From Sedimentibacter hydroxybenzoicus DSM 7310 (GTDB lineage Bacteria > Bacillota > Clostridia > Tissierellales > Sedimentibacteraceae): a stretch of DNA of 64,000 bases. The notes under the pieces are model-generated. The model was given only the letters and a program-made list of their open reading frames with translations. It was not told where the DNA came from and did no database searches. The stretch is taken from the NCBI RefSeq assembly GCF_013403245.1, contig NZ_JACBNQ010000008.1:1-64000 (forward strand). The letters are read 5' to 3'. This document shows, in pieces, positions 26,204 to 35,355 of this stretch. Positions within the stretch are counted from its first letter, which is position 1; the number at the start of each line of letters is the position of its first letter. Both the position numbers and the translations under genes were made by a program.

Positions 26204-27021
26204 AACAAATCCACCAATTCCTTTACGTCTATTATATCGGTCGGAATATTAATACCTTCCTTTACAAGCTCCTGAGCAAGCTCGGTAACCTGAGGAACAT
26301 CCAATCCGAATTTTTTGATTTCGTCAATATTCCTGAAAACTTCTTTCGGAGTACCGTCTAACTTTATGCCGCCCTTGTCTATTATTACAACTCTGTCCGC
26401 CTGTACTGCTTCATCCATGTAATGAGTAATCAATAAAATTGTTTTTCCGGCTTTGTTTAGTTTTTTCAGAGTATCCATTACTTCTCTTCTGCCTGAAGGA
26501 TCGAGCATTGCAGTCGGTTCATCCAGCACGATACAATCAGAATTTAAAGCAAGTATGCCTGCAATTGCTATTCTTTGTTTTTGACCGCCTGAAAGCATAT
26601 GCGGAGGTCTTTTTCTATATTCATACATACCAACCGTATTTAAGGCATCATCAACTCTTTTCCTGATTTCAGAAGGTTCTACACCTTGATTTTCCGGTCC
26701 GAAGGCGATATCTTCTTCCACAATGGTTGCAACAAGCTGATTGTCCGGGTTTTGAAATACCATTCCCGCTGCTTGCCTGATGTCCCATAGCTTTGAATCA
26801 TCAGAAGTATCCATGCCTTTTACATATATTTTTCCTTCTGTAGGCAATAAAATAGAGTTTATAAGCTTAGCAAGTGTAGATTTTCCGGAACCGTTATGAC
26901 CTATAATCGCAGTAAATTCTCCCTGCTTTATTTCAAGACTAATGCCATTCAGCGCATAATCATTGCTTTCTTTTTCATATTTATATTTAACATTTTCAAT
27001 TTTAATTATATTTTCAATCAT
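26194..27021 (-). CDS. ecfA1: ECF transporter ATPase EcfA1
   Basis: This is the second ATPase of the ECF module, pairing with EcfA2. Walker A is GHNGSGKST, the Q loop [19 protein letters not shown], the signature MLSGGQKQR and Walker [14 protein letters not shown]. The 275-residue reading starts [16 protein letters not shown], with a weak GGGTG site. A start 23 codons upstream is open but has no ribosome binding site. In related genomes this gene follows rplQ directly; here the agr locus lies between, and a new promoter serves it. Confidence 0.94.
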
Positions 27022-27065
27022 ATAAGCACCCATATATTTATTTTCATACACCGTTCTTATTGAAT

Positions 27066-27144
27066 ACGGACAAATCTTTGTCCGTAACATAAGAAAACAG
27101 TATTACTAATTCGCTTCAAGGGAACTAATTTAATGCGAATTAGT
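27066..27144. repeat. Two inverted repeats upstream of ecfA1
   Basis: TACGGACAAA-TC-TTTGTCCGTA (27066-27087) is a perfect 22-bp palindrome. ACTAATTCGC (27105-27114) is repeated inverted as GCGAATTAGT (27135-27144). Both lie in the ecf leader, between its promoter and ecfA1. They may be leader hairpins or operators. Confidence 0.6.
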
Positions 27145-27157
27145 TTTACTGCAATAA

Positions 27158-27186
27158 ATAATAACATTATTCCAACAAATTTACAA
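27158..27186 (-). promoter_or_regulatory. Promoter of the ecfA1-ecfA2-ecfT-truA unit
   Basis: On the minus strand TTGTAA (27181-27186) and TATTAT (27158-27163) are 17 bp apart, just after the agrB terminator. Confidence 0.5.
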
Positions 27187-27190
27187 CATA

Positions 27191-27222
27191 AAAATTGACA
27201 GTTACACCCAACTGTCAATTTA
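27191..27222 (-). terminator. Terminator of the agr locus
   Basis: AATTGACAGTT and AACTGTCAATT form an 11-bp perfect stem with the loop ACACCC. On the minus strand a T tract follows. It lies 20 bases after the agrB stop codon. Confidence 0.85.
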
Positions 27223-27242
27223 ACCCAATACTTAATAACGCT

Positions 27243-27803
27243 TCACTTTTTTAACAAACTTACCGATTCAATTACCATTGCCACGACTGCCGTGATATAA
27301 ATATAACCGGTACTAACCCGTACAAAATACAGAGCAACAGCAGCTAAACTCAACGCTATGACTATTATTCTGCTTATTAACTTGTACTTCTTTACTTCCT
27401 TTTTACTCAAAGGCTTGTTTTCTGTTTCCGCCGGTGCAAGTAAGAAAACCATGATTATTGAAAATAGGATTCCAATTACTAAAATTATTTCCCCATATGC
27501 TATTAAATACGTATTGCTTAGAGCTGAAATTAGAAATGCTATCAGTGTTACGGAAAAGCATTCTAAATGCGTTTTTGAATGGTAGCCACCAGCATAAACC
27601 TTAAGACCCGACAGGAAAATGATAAAAATTAAAAGCTCAAATTTTTTGTTTAAAATATATGCCGCCGTAGAAAGGATTAATAAGTTTAACAGCAAGGATA
27701 GCAGTACCTCGATGCTGTATGCATACACTTCCTTTTCATTATCAGAGGAATTGAGCTTCAGCCCAATTCCTTCAGATAAGAAAACAGAAATCTTATTTAT
27801 CAT
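27243..27803 (-). CDS. agrB: AgrB-type peptide-processing protease
   Basis: AgrB is a membrane cysteine protease that cuts the AgrD tail and forms the cyclic thiolactone. The 186-residue protein has about five membrane segments. The catalytic pair is H75 and C82 in AGGYHSKTHLECF, with the family spacing of seven. The APAETENKPLSKKEVKKYK block is also typical. It overlaps the last 11 bases of agrD, so translation is coupled. It is the last gene of a four-gene locus. Confidence 0.94.
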   Translation of the reverse strand: MINKISVFLSEGIGLKLNSSDNEKEVYAYSIEVLLSLLLNLLILSTAAYILNKKFELLIFIIFLSGLKVYAGGYHSKTHLECFSVTLIAFLISALSNTYLIAYGEIILVIGILFSIIMVFLLAPAETENKPLSKKEVKKYKLISRIIVIALSLAAVALYFVRVSTGYIYITAVVAMVIESVSLLKK

Positions 27804-27930
27804 CTTTCAGCAAGCATTGCGGAACCTTTGGTTGATTATACAGAAATAAGCATGTCGTCCCCACGGTTGTTTGAGCAGTCATAACCAAAAATGCAGCAAT
27901 ACATGACATAAAGGATAAAGTTTTTTTCAC
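27793..27930 (-). CDS. agrD: AgrD-type cyclic autoinducer pre-peptide
   Basis: The 45-residue frame starts at GTG with AAAGGAGGG seven bases upstream. It has a basic, hydrophobic leader (MKKTLSFMSCIAAFLVMTAQ), then TTVGTTCLFLYNQPKVPQ. The ring would form between C27 and Y31 (CLFLY), followed by the QPKVP tail that AgrB recognises in clostridial AgrD proteins. A second cysteine (C39) in the tail is unusual. Its position just before agrB, the overlap and the length all fit. The exact mature peptide is inferred. Confidence 0.88.
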   Translation of the reverse strand: MKKTLSFMSCIAAFLVMTAQTTVGTTCLFLYNQPKVPQCLLKDDK

Positions 27931-27960
27931 TTTACATCCCTCCTTTCAAACGTTAACAAC

Positions 27961-28009
27961 ATAATATCCTATTTTTATACAATGTTCAACATTTTTCACG
28001 CTAAAATGT
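27961..28009 (-). promoter_or_regulatory. agrD-agrB promoter with upstream dyad
   Basis: On the minus strand TTGAAC (27984-27989) and TATTAT (27961-27966) are 17 bp apart. ACATTTT (27989-27995) and AAAATGT (28003-28009) form a dyad touching the -35 box, a candidate operator. Autoregulation by the LytTR-type response regulator is expected from known agr systems; its direct-repeat site is not obvious to me here. Confidence 0.6.
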
Positions 28010-28112
28010 CTATTTGGTTGTTTTCACTGCTTGTACGGTAATTAAAGGGGTTAAAATAAACCTGTAATCAATATTTACAAGTATTTCCGTGTCATCATTT
28101 TAAAATTGTATA

Positions 28113-29438
28113 TTAAATCTTAGTCAGCATATGTACTTCTATAACAAATACCCTGTCATCATAGCTTAGCTTCATAAAACCTCCGTATTTTTCGGCAATG
28201 CCTTTAATGCTCTTCAATCCATAGCCGTGTCTTGTTTTATCCTTTTTAATAGTGAGTATTTTGTTTCCTTCTTTATTTAACTCACCCGAATAGGGGTTTT
28301 CAGATTTTATTATAATACTTCTTCCAATCATATCTATATCAAGCTTTATATATTTTTCAATGCATTCTTCACATTCATTGCATGCCTCAATAGCATTGTT
28401 GATAATATTGTTTAACACCCTACATATATCTTCTTTGTCTATATGTATTTCGTTTTCTTCGGTAAGCTTGCTTTCTATGACCACATCTATACCCTTACAC
28501 TTCGCTTCCTTCAGCTTGAAGTTTAAAAAGGATGTAATTATATTATCCTTATCTATTTGAGGCATGAGTTGTATGTCTATTTCACGAAGCTTTTTTTCGA
28601 TGTGGATTCTGATGTTGTCTCTTTGGTCCAATTCATTATACGCATGGATTATTGCAAGCTCTCCTCTCATATCGTGCCTTAAAATTCTGATTTCTTCCAA
28701 GACGGAATTAACATCTGTAAAATATGCATGCTCCATTTTCATTTGTTGGAGCTCCAAATCATTTTTATGTTTTTCGTTCATATCCTTAATTATTTTATTC
28801 GTTAATGCTATTGTAATTATGGATATAATAGACACACATAATGTAAAAACAACCAAGCTATTGTTTATACTCTCATCTTGAATTTCGATATTCCCATACA
28901 TCCAAATAACCATCACAATTAAGGTAATAGTTAAAAATAAAATTGATCCAACAAGAAAATAATACCTGTTATCAAATAAATTTAACCTTTCCTTTTTGGT
29001 AGTTTTCTTCAAAAACATATAGGTATATATAAGTAAGGTTTGAGAAATTACCATCCCTTCAAATCTTATAAAGTTTTGCTCCTGATGTAATTTAAAGTCC
29101 AACCCGGTTATCGAAAAAATAAAAACAGCAGCCAACAATTCACATGCTCCTATAAATGCCATAATTAAAAAAATTGTAATAGCCTTTGAAAATATATTTC
29201 CTTTAAAAATAAGAACTGTCGTAAGATAAATAAGAAAATAGAAGAAAATATACATATAAGGATATAATTCTATTGATAGATTATAGTTTAAAATACTTAA
29301 CATCGCAGTCATAACAATCATGAGAATCTCAACAGAATATTTAAAATAAAATCTACGTACATAATATAATTCTAATGTTTTATAGATCACAAACATTTGG
29401 AGAAAGTTTACTGATAATTCTATTAAATCCCACTTCAT
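28113..29438 (-). CDS. agrC: AgrC-type sensor histidine kinase
   Basis: The kinase would sense the cyclic peptide outside the cell. The first 220 residues of 441 are about six membrane segments. They are followed by a helical linker and an H box, RILRHDMRGELAIIHAYNE, of the AgrC/HPK10 type. The ATP-binding domain has the N box NNIINNAIEAC and a G box HGYGLKSIKGIAEKYGG. It overlaps the regulator gene by four bases. About 120 bases separate it from the agrDB promoter. Confidence 0.93.
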   Translation of the reverse strand: MKWDLIELSVNFLQMFVIYKTLELYYVRRFYFKYSVEILMIVMTAMLSILNYNLSIELYPYMYIFFYFLIYLTTVLIFKGNIFSKAITIFLIMAFIGACELLAAVFIFSITGLDFKLHQEQNFIRFEGMVISQTLLIYTYMFLKKTTKKERLNLFDNRYYFLVGSILFLTITLIVMVIWMYGNIEIQDESINNSLVVFTLCVSIISIITIALTNKIIKDMNEKHKNDLELQQMKMEHAYFTDVNSVLEEIRILRHDMRGELAIIHAYNELDQRDNIRIHIEKKLREIDIQLMPQIDKDNIITSFLNFKLKEAKCKGIDVVIESKLTEENEIHIDKEDICRVLNNIINNAIEACNECEECIEKYIKLDIDMIGRSIIIKSENPYSGELNKEGNKILTIKKDKTRHGYGLKSIKGIAEKYGGFMKLSYDDRVFVIEVHMLTKI

Positions 29439-30157
29439 ATTTTCACCACCAGTTTTTTTAGTTTAAATTTATTAACCAAATCTGATAAGCATCTACGACT
29501 TGCTTCTTCTCTTGATTCATTGCTGAAATAAATTACATTTTTTCTGATTTCCCTTACATTTTCCATATTTACTAAGCAAGATTTACTTGACCTTATAATA
29601 TTTTCATTGTTTGAAAACCTTTTTCCAATACTATCAAGTGTTTGTGATGCAATAATCTCCTTATTGTCCAAACAATAGATATGTAGCTTACGGTCTTCCT
29701 TCTTCCTTAATATGTGTGTAATGTCATCAATAGGTATACGGTGAATGATTCCCTTTATGTCCTTTACATCTAAATAATTTAAGCTCCCTTCTAATTCCAG
29801 CAGACATTCATTCAATACTTTTTCTATTATAGAAAGGCTTACAGGCTTTAACAGATAATCTCTGGCCTTGACTCTATAGGATTCATAGGCATATTCTTTA
29901 TGTGATGTCAGATAGAATATAATGGCTTTATTGCTCATCTCCCTTATTTTTAATCCTGTTTCTATGCCATTTATTTCGGGCATTTCCATATCTAAAAATA
30001 TGATGTCAAATTTGTTTTCCTTAAAGGCTTGTACAAGATCATGTCCTGAATTAAATGTATTAACATTCGTTCTATTATTAACAATTCTTTTTATAATTTC
30101 TGTAACAATTTCGCTGTATTCCTTTGAATCATCGCAAACGGCAATACTTATTCCCAT
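29435..30157 (-). CDS. agrA: AgrA-type response regulator (LytTR)
   Basis: The 240-residue protein has a receiver domain with acidic pocket D9/D10 and the phosphorylated D56 in IIFLDMEMPEINGIETG. The KPVS loop ends that domain. The C-terminal half is a LytTR DNA-binding domain (residues about 135-236; RSSKSCLVNMENVREIRKN). It is the first gene of the agr locus here. The order regulator, kinase, pre-peptide, protease differs from the staphylococcal order. It probably activates the agrD promoter and others. Confidence 0.93.
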   Translation of the reverse strand: MGISIAVCDDSKEYSEIVTEIIKRIVNNRTNVNTFNSGHDLVQAFKENKFDIIFLDMEMPEINGIETGLKIREMSNKAIIFYLTSHKEYAYESYRVKARDYLLKPVSLSIIEKVLNECLLELEGSLNYLDVKDIKGIIHRIPIDDITHILRKKEDRKLHIYCLDNKEIIASQTLDSIGKRFSNNENIIRSSKSCLVNMENVREIRKNVIYFSNESREEASRRCLSDLVNKFKLKKLVVKI

Positions 30158-30197
30158 ATTTTCACATCCTACATTAGTATATATAAGTATATATAAT

Positions 30198-30234
30198 ATT
30201 TTATCACAAATCGTAAAATATTCAATGAATATTT
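30198..30234 (-). promoter_or_regulatory. agrA-agrC promoter with overlapping palindrome
   Basis: On the minus strand TTGAAT (30220-30225) and TAAAAT (30198-30203) are 16 bp apart. The -35 box lies inside AAATATTCA-T-TGAATATTT (30216-30234), a perfect 19-bp palindrome that looks like an operator. Confidence 0.6.
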
Positions 30235-30341
30235 AATCATAATGTAATCGATTTTTGGTGGATAAAAATTCACTGATTGATTTTCTATCAGTTGTTTGTG
30301 CTGTGTGCGTAATTTGCCACTTACAGCTTATGTAGTATGCA

Positions 30342-30420
30342 ATAAGCAGATGACCCAAATTTATTTGCTCGCTTCACGCTAATAAATTTAGGTCATCTGC
30401 TTATACTGTAAGTATAAAAA
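30342..30420 (+). repeat. Family 3 hairpin repeat, long copy with tail
   Basis: ATAAGCAGATGACC and GGTCATCTGCTTAT (14 bp) plus AAATTTATT/AATAAATTT (9 bp) give a 24-bp stem with one mismatch. It is followed by TATACTGTAAGTATA. It lies between agrA and rplQ, after the rplQ terminator. In the gap 30158-30460 this, the agr promoter and the terminator are all I see. Confidence 0.7.
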
Positions 30421-30452
30421 GAGCAATTTAAATTTTGTAAATTTAAATTGCT
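30416..30452 (-). terminator. Terminator of the alpha operon (after rplQ)
   Basis: AGCAATTTAAATTT and AAATTTAAATTGCT form a perfect 14-bp stem with loop TGT. On the minus strand CTTTTT follows. It ends the ribosomal operon before the agr locus. Confidence 0.85.
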
Positions 30453-30460
30453 TTTCATGT

Positions 30461-30802
30461 TTATACTAATTCAATTATCGCCATTTCTGCTCCATCGCCT
30501 CTGCGTGGTCCCAATTTAAGAATTCTGGTGTATCCACCATTTCTTTCCTTGTATTTAGGAGCAACTTCTTCAAACAACTTACTTACAGCATTTTTATCGT
30601 ATAAATAAGCTGCTGCTTGACGTCTTGCATGTAGGTCTCCTCTTTTGCCAAGAGTGATAGTTCTTTCAGCTACTCTTCTTAATTCTTTGGCTCTTGTTAC
30701 AGTTGTAACAATTCTGCCGTGATTAATTAAGTCAGCTGTCATATTACGAAGCATCGCTACTCTGTGGTCAGACTTGAAACCAAGCTTTCTGTGACTACCC
30801 AT
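30461..30802 (-). CDS. rplQ: 50S ribosomal protein L17
   Basis: L17 lies near the peptide exit tunnel. The 113-residue protein starts [20 protein letters not shown] and has the family blocks [19 protein letters not shown] and [20 protein letters not shown]. It is 20 bases behind rpoA and last in the alpha operon. A strong terminator follows, whereas in many related genomes the ecf genes come next. Confidence 0.98.
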
Positions 30803-30822
30803 GCTTAGTCCTCCTTTTACAG

Positions 30823-31770
30823 CTAATTATCATTTTTTCTGAGAGATAAACCTAATTCCTCAAGTTTCTTAGCCACTTCGTCCAAAGATTTCTTTCCAAG
30901 GTTTCTTACTTTCATCATGTCATCTTCTGACTTGTATGTAAGCTCCTCAACAGTATTTATTCCTGCTCTCTTCAGACAGTTGTAAGATCTAACTGACAAA
31001 TCCAGCTCCTCTATTGTCATTTCTAATACTTTCTCTTTTTCATCTTCTTCTTTTTCTACCATTATTTCAACGTCATTAACGTGATCTGTCAATGATATAA
31101 ATAAATTCAGATGTTCATTTAATATTTTAGCACCTAAAGAAACTGCTTCTTCAGGTTCAATTGTACCATTAGTCCATATCTCGATTGTCAATTTGTCAAA
31201 ATCTGTTCTGTTACCAACTCTGGTATCTTCAACAGTAAAGTTAACCTTCTTAACAGGTGTGTAGATAGAATCTATAGGTATTACGCCAATTGCCTGACTG
31301 TCCTTCTTGTTTCTTTCTGCTACGACGTAACCTCTGCCCTGCTCCATTTCCATTTCGATAATGAGCTCAGAGCCTTCTTCCAAGGTTGCAATATGCAAAT
31401 CCTCGTTGATTATTTCTACATCTGTTCCTGTTATAATATCTGCCGCTGTAACCACCTTAGGGCCTTTAGCATCTATCAGAAGCTGTGCCGGTCCTTGTAC
31501 GTTCATTTTTGCAGCAAGGTTCTTTATATTAAGAATTATTTCTGTAACATCTTCTCTTACTCCCGGTATTGTAGAGAATTCATGCAATACACCTTGAATA
31601 TTAATCGATGTTACAGCTGCTCCAGGTAACGATGAAAGAAGTATTCTTCTGAGTGAATTTCCAAGTGTTGTCCCGTAACCTCTTTCAAGTGGTTCAACTA
31701 CTATTTTCCCATACGAGTTATCATCATTTTTTTCAATTAACGTAATATTAGGTTTTTCTATTTCTATCAT
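30823..31770 (-). CDS. rpoA: RNA polymerase alpha subunit
   Basis: Alpha starts polymerase assembly as a dimer and contacts promoter DNA and activators. The 315-residue protein has the N-terminal domain with [20 protein letters not shown] (about 27-46), a flexible linker rich in E and K near 235, and the C-terminal domain. That domain carries [20 protein letters not shown] and [12 protein letters not shown], the DNA-binding part. Normal length, 20 bases before rplQ. Confidence 0.98.
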
Positions 31771-34707: not shown

Positions 34708-35355
34708 TTACTTATTCCTCATTTTTGCAACAATCTCTTTGCCAACCTCAGCTATGGGTTTTTCTCCGTCTATGTTAACTATTATACCTTTTTTGGTGTA
34801 ATAATCAATAAGGGGTTCTGTCTGCTCCTGGTAAACATTGATTCTTTTCGTAACTGTTTCTTCAGCATCATCTTTTCTTTGAAGAAGCTCGCCGCCGCAA
34901 TTGTCGCATATTCCTTCTTTTGAAGGCTTATTGAATGATATGTGAAATGTTTGACCGCAGTCTTTGCATATTCTTCTTCCAACAGCTCTTTCAACAAGAA
35001 GCTCTTTTTTTACTATTATATTAATAACATAATCAAGCTTTTGGTTCATGCTTTCTAATGCACTTTCAAGCGCATCTGCCTGAAAAATTGTTCTCGGGAA
35101 ACCGTCTAACAAAAATCCATTTTCACAATCATCCTTAAGCAATCTGTCTTTTACCAATTCAACTGTCAATTCATCGGGAACAAGCAATCCTTGATCCATA
35201 TATTCTTTTGCTTTTTTCCCAAGAACTGTTCCTTCTTTAATATTCTGACGGAATATATCTCCCGTAGAAATATGTGGTATTGAAAATTCTTTTACAATTG
35301 TTTCTGCTTGAGTTCCCTTTCCGGCTCCCGGAGGTCCCAATAAAATTGCTCTCAT
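34708..35355 (-). CDS. adk: Adenylate kinase, zinc-lid form
   Basis: The enzyme interconverts ATP + AMP and 2 ADP. The 215-residue protein has the P-loop [12 protein letters not shown] (7-18), the AMP site [10 protein letters not shown], and DGFPRT near residue 84. The lid carries four cysteines (CKDCGQTF and CDNCGG), the zinc-binding Gram-positive form. It is between secY and map in the spc operon. Confidence 0.98.

Follow-up and report, generated by a model that had tools for sequence, protein, structure and literature searches.

A short agrD gene in a probable agr quorum-sensing locus of Sedimentibacter hydroxybenzoicus, with a conserved repeat upstream as predicted AgrA site

In C. perfringens, VirSR is encoded away from agrBD. 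The agrBD genes of that species are a clostridial AgrB-AgrD pair that works via a secreted factor and are described as sharing a transcript with two genes that encode hypothetical proteins (PMC2706048), and VirS has been proposed as the receptor (PMC7492741). A second clostridial AgrD, Clo1313_2818 of C. thermocellum, is reported to give a cyclic pentapeptide, which shares the five-residue ring format but is a lactone closed through Ser and is encoded outside an apparent agr operon (PMC5322536). The agrBDCA system of S. aureus combines four components with a five-residue Cys ring and a precursor tail that is removed by AgrB, as outlined in PMC10196373, and with a tandem direct repeat centred ~60 bp before the start, as given in PMC4227749.

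We analysed the first 64,000 nucleotides of contig NZ_JACBNQ010000008.1 of S. hydroxybenzoicus DSM 7310 (the window). A literature search combining Sedimentibacter and AgrD found no paper in the collection searched. The window contains the same four components as S. aureus, and the five-residue Cys ring and AgrB-removed tail are predicted here as well. It differs in gene order (A-C-D-B), in where the AgrA site is predicted (within the locus, ahead of agrDB), in having a Cys in the AgrD tail, and in that no known RNA family was recognised beside the locus in an Rfam scan of positions 26900-31000. The single sub-threshold match of that scan, to a microRNA at 30331-30416 (31.4 bits against a gathering threshold of 82), is almost surely due to chance. 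The genes and their immediate signals are as follows.

27192 to 27221, minus strand: terminator-like hairpin after agrB, 13-bp stem (pattern match only)
27243 to 27803, minus strand: agrB, peptide-processing membrane endopeptidase (PF04647, 114.8 bits, cut-off 23)
27793 to 27930, minus strand: agrD, AIP precursor of 45 aa with a GTG start and a TIGR04223 match, sequence MKKTLSFMSCIAAFLVMTAQTTVGTTCLFLYNQPKVPQCLLKDDK
27938 to 27945, minus strand: Shine-Dalgarno sequence of agrD, AAGGAGGG, 7 nt upstream of the GTG
28113 to 29438, minus strand: agrC, GHKL membrane sensor histidine kinase (PF14501, 81.6 bits)
29435 to 30157, minus strand: agrA, response regulator with a LytTR DNA-binding domain (PF00072, 70.9 bits; PF04397, 48.8 bits)

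Read along the minus strand, agrA (30157-29435) is followed by agrC (29438-28113), agrD (27930-27793), and agrB (27803-27243), with overlaps of 4 nt between agrA and agrC and 11 nt between agrD and agrB. The set is flanked by rplQ on one side and by the ECF-transporter genes ecfA1, ecfA2, and ecfT on the other; we take these names, and those of truA, rplM, rpoA, and rpsD in the flanks, from the sequences themselves rather than from profiles. Transcription likely ends before ecfA1, as the hairpin would suggest, though the terminator scan that detected it was at chance level for the region (2 found versus 1.4 expected from shuffles).

The initial annotation had pointed to a short, GTG-started frame of 45 codons with a strong ribosome binding site, overlapping agrB, and had called it agrD-like. 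Frame, binding site, and overlap are all present, and the identity is borne out by the TIGR04223 profile, which matches residues 7-42 with 34.2 bits (E = 1.9e-8; cut-off 19); a Pfam search with the 45-aa peptide gave no match at E 0.001. Searching 100 related genomes (own genome included) with the AgrD protein returned 15 matches with E < 1e-13, spread over 14 genomes that all belong to one genus, and 61 of the 100 genomes when weaker matches (E up to 1) were included. Across the resulting alignment of 15 copies (14 distinct, the window copy counted), the agrD frame is unbroken in every one. The start codon column of 13 aligned upstream regions holds GTG in six, the window among them, ATG in six, and another codon in one (G010b), and this conservation in other species supports the assigned start. 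At each of the 15 aligned loci the TAA stop of agrD overlaps the agrB ATG; the overlap measures 11 nt in 12 of them and 8 nt in 3. By sequence, then, positions 27793-27930 read as an agrD gene encoding an ordinary signal precursor of the known agr type.

Matches to agrC and agrA lie beside agrD/agrB at all 15 loci, one agrC being cut by a contig end. A scan with the AgrB alignment over named genome contigs gave 19 loci, of which six have 24-29% identity and 13 have 55-77%; the latter are assigned to Sedimentibacter sp., Sedimentibacter acidaminivorans, or Firmicutes, Clostridiales, Tissierellia, and Bacillota bins. Both the rplQ and the ecf flank were found by tblastn on the retrieved stretches at 9 of 15 loci, including the window, and one flank at five more that reach contig ends (L040, L042, L043, L044, and L049); the remaining locus, L046, a 59% copy in G024, is sited elsewhere in its genome. 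At L042 and L044 agrA follows agrB (order C-D-B-A), and the two AgrDs are identical, so the change of order was perhaps one event. Eleven of 25 genomes of the genus have no orthologue-grade AgrD match. Among these and the family outgroups G025 and G026, ecfA1 comes immediately after rplQ in G013, G015, G016, G023, and both outgroups; agrA follows rplQ at a contig end in G011; other sequence follows rplQ, within the stretch covered, in G002, G003, G008, and G018, as it does in G024, the genome with the L046 copy; and rplQ was looked for in G020 and G022 and not found. The distribution could reflect either acquisition at a single site inside the genus or an ancient presence followed by losses. 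A mobile origin was considered and set aside: phage and plasmid collections contained no AgrD relative at E 1, and none of 11 candidate stretches from viral contigs yielded a confirmed AgrB relative.

The 3.81-Mb genome itself carries four AgrB genes, at the window locus and on contigs C67, C16, and C8. The C67 locus (L053, 5975-6713, minus strand) is a divergent AgrB-AgrD pair whose AgrD candidate, SSSKCPDFIWEQTKVPKCLL, scores 16 bits against the cut-off of 19 and has six residues from the Cys to the tail; 69% relatives (G014 and G021) differ in the residues right after the Cys and retain VPKCLL. Its neighbours are presumably a convergent LytTR-like regulator and kinase, followed by a subtilisin-like protease gene, to judge from their sequences. 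Further agr sets lie at L054 (C16) and L052 (C8); one of the two has a Ser ring within SHWGIYQPKEP and is a predicted lactone, and the other reads CLFAAHQPKLP.

The AgrD precursor can be divided into three parts.

27853 to 27930, minus strand: leader, residues 1-26, with a hydrophobic segment at about residues 7-17
27838 to 27852, minus strand: predicted ring CLFLY, C27-Y31, placed by its position relative to the NQPKVP tail and by the variable residues 28-31 (closure presumed)
27796 to 27837, minus strand: C-terminal tail, residues 32-45, NQPKVPQCLLKDDK, predicted to be removed by AgrB (pN/pS 0.10)

We take the AgrD pattern to be a Cys or Ser ring residue, four further residues, and then a tail of the form (N/H/Y)-(Q/E)-P-x-x-P. 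The window sequence CLFLY-NQPKVP fits this pattern, which also appears in the AgrD-like ORFs compared, and the earlier placement of a five-residue ring at C27-Y31 stands as a prediction. Invariant residues in the alignment are S6, L15, T18, A19, G24, T26, N32, Q33, P34, P37, C39, L40, and D44. Pooled pN/pS, from pairs that are not independent, is 0.43 for the leader, 0.86 for residue 25, 0.67 for residues 28-31, and 0.10 for the tail; as it is below 1 in every region, the ring values indicate relaxed constraint rather than proven diversifying selection. A conserved tail beside variable ring residues is the pattern expected of a signal precursor. In S. aureus AgrD, residues D33 and E34 are reported as essential (PMC10196373), whereas the window AgrD has N32 and Q33 at that place. 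One relative, G017, has the ring SIFIY, in which Ser replaces the ring Cys, and is predicted to make a lactone variant in an otherwise thiolactone series. CLFLY had also been described as apparently distinct from familiar signals, such as the CLWFT type of C. perfringens. It is indeed absent among the other AgrD-like ORFs listed, and a literature search for CLFLY found nothing on the subject, but an unfamiliar ring carries little weight, since sister species differ in their ring residues.

The leader had been described as amphipathic, which the sequence does not bear out. It is hydrophobic with a KK start, and its hydrophobic moment is at most 0.28 for 11-residue spans starting at residues 3-20, reaching 0.41 and 0.39 only in the two spans that include both lysines. 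An amphipathic leader helix is described for S. aureus AgrD (PMC10196373); it is a trait of that protein, and we did not treat it as a requirement of TIGR04223.

The variable residue 25 beside the invariant G24 tentatively favours TTCLFLY as the mature form. Calculated [M+H]+ values of the cyclic forms are 640.316 for CLFLY, 741.364 for TCLFLY, 842.412 for TTCLFLY, and 899.433 for GTTCLFLY. The extent of this exotail bears on the chemistry of the final product, which could instead be a homodetic cyclopeptide formed by an S-to-N acyl shift after full removal of the leader. Exotail-free Listeria AIPs rearrange from thiolactones in this way, with no change in mass, according to PMC11297923, whose reference list includes a report of such cyclopeptides in clostridia, and C. 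thermocellum is described as making an exotail-free five-residue lactone (PMC5322536). In the window AgrD, however, the invariant T26 and G24 around a variable residue 25 suggest that an exotail is kept, which would block the shift. We consider rearrangement unlikely here, at perhaps one chance in several, and prefer the thiolactone; because the masses are equal, mass alone cannot tell the two apart.

The second cysteine of the initial annotation, C39 (codon 27814-27816, minus strand), was said to be unusual for AgrD and to offer an alternative ring or a disulfide. We surveyed the retrieved loci with a fixed-spacing pattern, which gave 82 distinct ORFs, comprising the 14 orthologues and 68 others, at least two of which (from L055 and L077) resemble chance ORFs; three match places (G086:C29, G043:C54, and G080:C7) were left out. 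Among the 68 other AgrD-like ORFs, 7 have Cys at the C39 place; of these, four carry a Ser ring and three a Cys ring. Ser, Gly, and Asn are found there most often. (The script printed 16/66, having grouped two non-orthologues with Glu at this place with the orthologues.) Cys is in this sense a minority residue, as claimed, but none of the 14 distinct copies lacks it, and it recurs elsewhere: a separate AgrD-like family in the same genus (G000, G014, and G021) likewise has VPKCLL.

A second chemistry at C39, whether an alternative ring or a precursor disulfide with C27 or with C10, would gain from this invariance, which exceeds that of most of the leader. C10, a third cysteine absent from the first reading, is replaced by Lys, Arg, or Leu in 3 of 14 copies. 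Yet C39 lies C-terminal to the expected AgrB cut and would therefore not be in the AIP, it is kept where C27 is Ser (G017) and where C10 is Lys, Arg, or Leu, and four of the seven other ORFs with a Cys at this place have a Ser ring. We regard such a chemistry as highly improbable and conclude from the comparison that Cys is probably tolerated in the tail recognised by AgrB and became fixed in this line, with C39 forming part of the conserved segment by which AgrB would recognise its substrate.

The partner proteins carry the residues expected of their families. In AgrB, G73, H75, and C82 are invariant in 15 of 15 copies, with H75 and C82 as the catalytic His and Cys, and their spacing equals that of S. 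aureus G75/H77/C84, from which the residue roles are taken (PMC10196373). Residue 68, which lies where S. aureus AgrB has R70, is Lys in the window and Arg in the other 14 aligned copies; the R70G substitution is reported to abolish peptidase activity in S. aureus AgrB (PMC10196373). AgrC has H255, N344, and N348 invariant in 14 aligned sequences. Profile searches against solved structures gave no match for AgrB, a weak kinase match for AgrC, and, among the best 60 of 149 matches for AgrA, mostly receiver domains, with 4cbv (ComE) extending into the C-terminal half; the C-terminal part of AgrA alone gave no LytTR match.

AgrA cysteines C8, C194, and C223 show no variation in the 13 copies aligned, and C223 lies 29 residues after C194, the same distance as in the C199-C228 redox pair given for S. 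aureus AgrA (PMC4227749). This likeness remains a coincidence of spacing because the structure searches gave no LytTR alignment. The catalytic Cys is the only invariant cysteine of AgrB among the 15 aligned. C39 could conceivably act as a redox gate that, when oxidised, locks AgrD, for example onto this catalytic Cys, while C194/C223 of AgrA tune the output; an anaerobe with such a gate would signal solely under reducing conditions. We give this idea almost no weight.

The gap between agrC and agrD contains a conserved block (28039-27961) in which a tandem repeat is followed by -35 and -10 elements and then by the agrD start.

28007 to 28039, minus strand: tandem repeat with a 21-bp period, predicted AgrA site, ACCGTACAAGCA / ACCAAATAGACA
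27984 to 27989, minus strand: -35 element TTGAAC, conserved in the alignment
27961 to 27966, minus strand: -10 element TATTAT, conserved in the alignment, 17-bp spacer from the -35

The consensus half-site, ACC(G/A)-N5-RCA, occurs twice with a 21-bp period (starting at 28039 and 28018 in the window) and is followed by TTGAA, 17 bp, and TATTAT. The proximal half-site is centred, by calculation, at about -58 from the expected start; the value given for S. aureus P2/P3 is about -60 (PMC4227749). A promoter scan of the region alone was at chance level (20 versus 22.3 expected). When repeat and promoter were scored together in 14 upstream regions, the real sequence was not equalled by any of 200 letter shuffles in any region; the template was built from 12 of the 14, and in G007 and G024 the best shuffle fell one point short. 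As measured by single-letter shuffles with a mostly self-derived template, the arrangement goes beyond composition, and AgrA binding stays a prediction.

We also looked for the repeat elsewhere. The strict pattern occurs exactly at agrD and at one other place in the own genome (G000:C11, GC-rich in the matched letters), with no backwards matches. Within the window, up to 2 mismatches gave 5 places versus 1.9 expected, and only the agrD site was exact. In seven relatives, the strict pattern gave 6 places in 5 genomes, exactly at agrD in G009, G012, G017, and G021 and at two non-agrD places in G019; since the backwards control matched equally often (6 in 5 genomes), the loose repeat pattern alone proves nothing. 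The extended site with up to 3 mismatches, a pattern made from these same sequences, was found at 14 places in 13 of 19 genus genomes, with none for the backwards control. Twelve of these lie upstream of agrD, one upstream of agrC in G007 (order C-D-B-A), where the site upstream of agrD is degenerate, and one is an extra site in G009. The non-syntenic copy L046, which was not used for the patterns, contains two ATAGAC motifs with a 21-bp period; the second of them lies 24 nt before TTGAAT, which is followed by 17 bp and TATAAT. The window ATAGAC likewise lies 24 nt before its -35, with the same 17-bp spacer; the scoring script chose another, poorer register in L046. A promoter sequence profile (R1) run on 18 genomes gave, among the matches listed, 14 agrD promoters, the extra G009 site, and many weak matches. 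In five genomes without a syntenic locus, the best R1 matches among those listed had E of 0.05 to 0.2, which we take as background, and the three weak matches that were inspected (L200, L201, and L207) all lie inside coding frames. In the own genome, neither the repeat patterns nor, among the matches listed, R1 revealed a second AgrA target of similar quality. The geometry of the repeat suggests an AgrA (LytTR) target and points to autoinduction of agrDB.

Modelled on known agr systems, from which each biochemical step is borrowed, a complete quorum-sensing scheme of AgrB processing, AgrC/AgrA sensing, and an AgrA-driven agrDB boost is very probable. What the sequences themselves show is the identity of the genes, their set, their conservation, and the repeat shared upstream. 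Points that weigh against the scheme are the Lys at AgrB residue 68, N32 and Q33 in AgrD, the poor specificity of the loose repeat pattern, the chance-level promoter and terminator scans, and the lack of a second AgrA target of similar quality among the matches listed for the own genome. AgrB would cut the precursor after Y31 and transfer the acyl group to the C27 thiol, yielding the CLFLY thiolactone and freeing the 14-residue tail; removal of the leader would then leave CLFLY with from none to a few extra N-terminal residues. The exported peptide would bind AgrC outside the cell, AgrC would phosphorylate AgrA, and AgrA would bind the 21-bp tandem repeat and raise agrDB transcription, with agrAC transcribed separately. 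Given the position of the predicted site between agrC and agrD, such a loop would boost signal making and not the receptor genes.

Could the peptide instead serve chiefly for growth inhibition or competition between related species? Ring residues do differ among sister species, and an added AgrD-type cyclic pentapeptide is reported to have slowed the growth rate of C. thermocellum (PMC5322536), but agrC and agrA accompany agrD/agrB at 15 of 15 loci together with a predicted AgrA-driven promoter, and we judge a principal role other than density signalling to be very doubtful. With density signalling as the preferred reading, the locus gives an environmental genus of anaerobes a complete agr system, for which both the signal and an autoinduction promoter are predicted. 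Its relatives, with differing rings, one Ser-for-Cys switch, and a near-constant tail, offer a natural set in which to study changes in signal specificity against a constant AgrB recognition. The general picture of agr systems is unchanged, and the addition, the upstream repeat, is modest and regulatory.

Both C-D-B-A loci have a weak R1 match just after agrA, on the ecfA1 side (L042, 21-90, E 0.03; L044, 2240-2309, E 0.31; G007 and G010); the two are not independent and possibly due to chance. The extra G009 site (G009:C59, ~34713-34795; L179/L199) is a second tandem repeat with -35 and -10 elements and a profile E of 1.5e-8. By eye, ~350 nt downstream of it end in a hairpin, which is followed by a lipoprotein-like gene, and the site is possibly an AgrA target or a small RNA.
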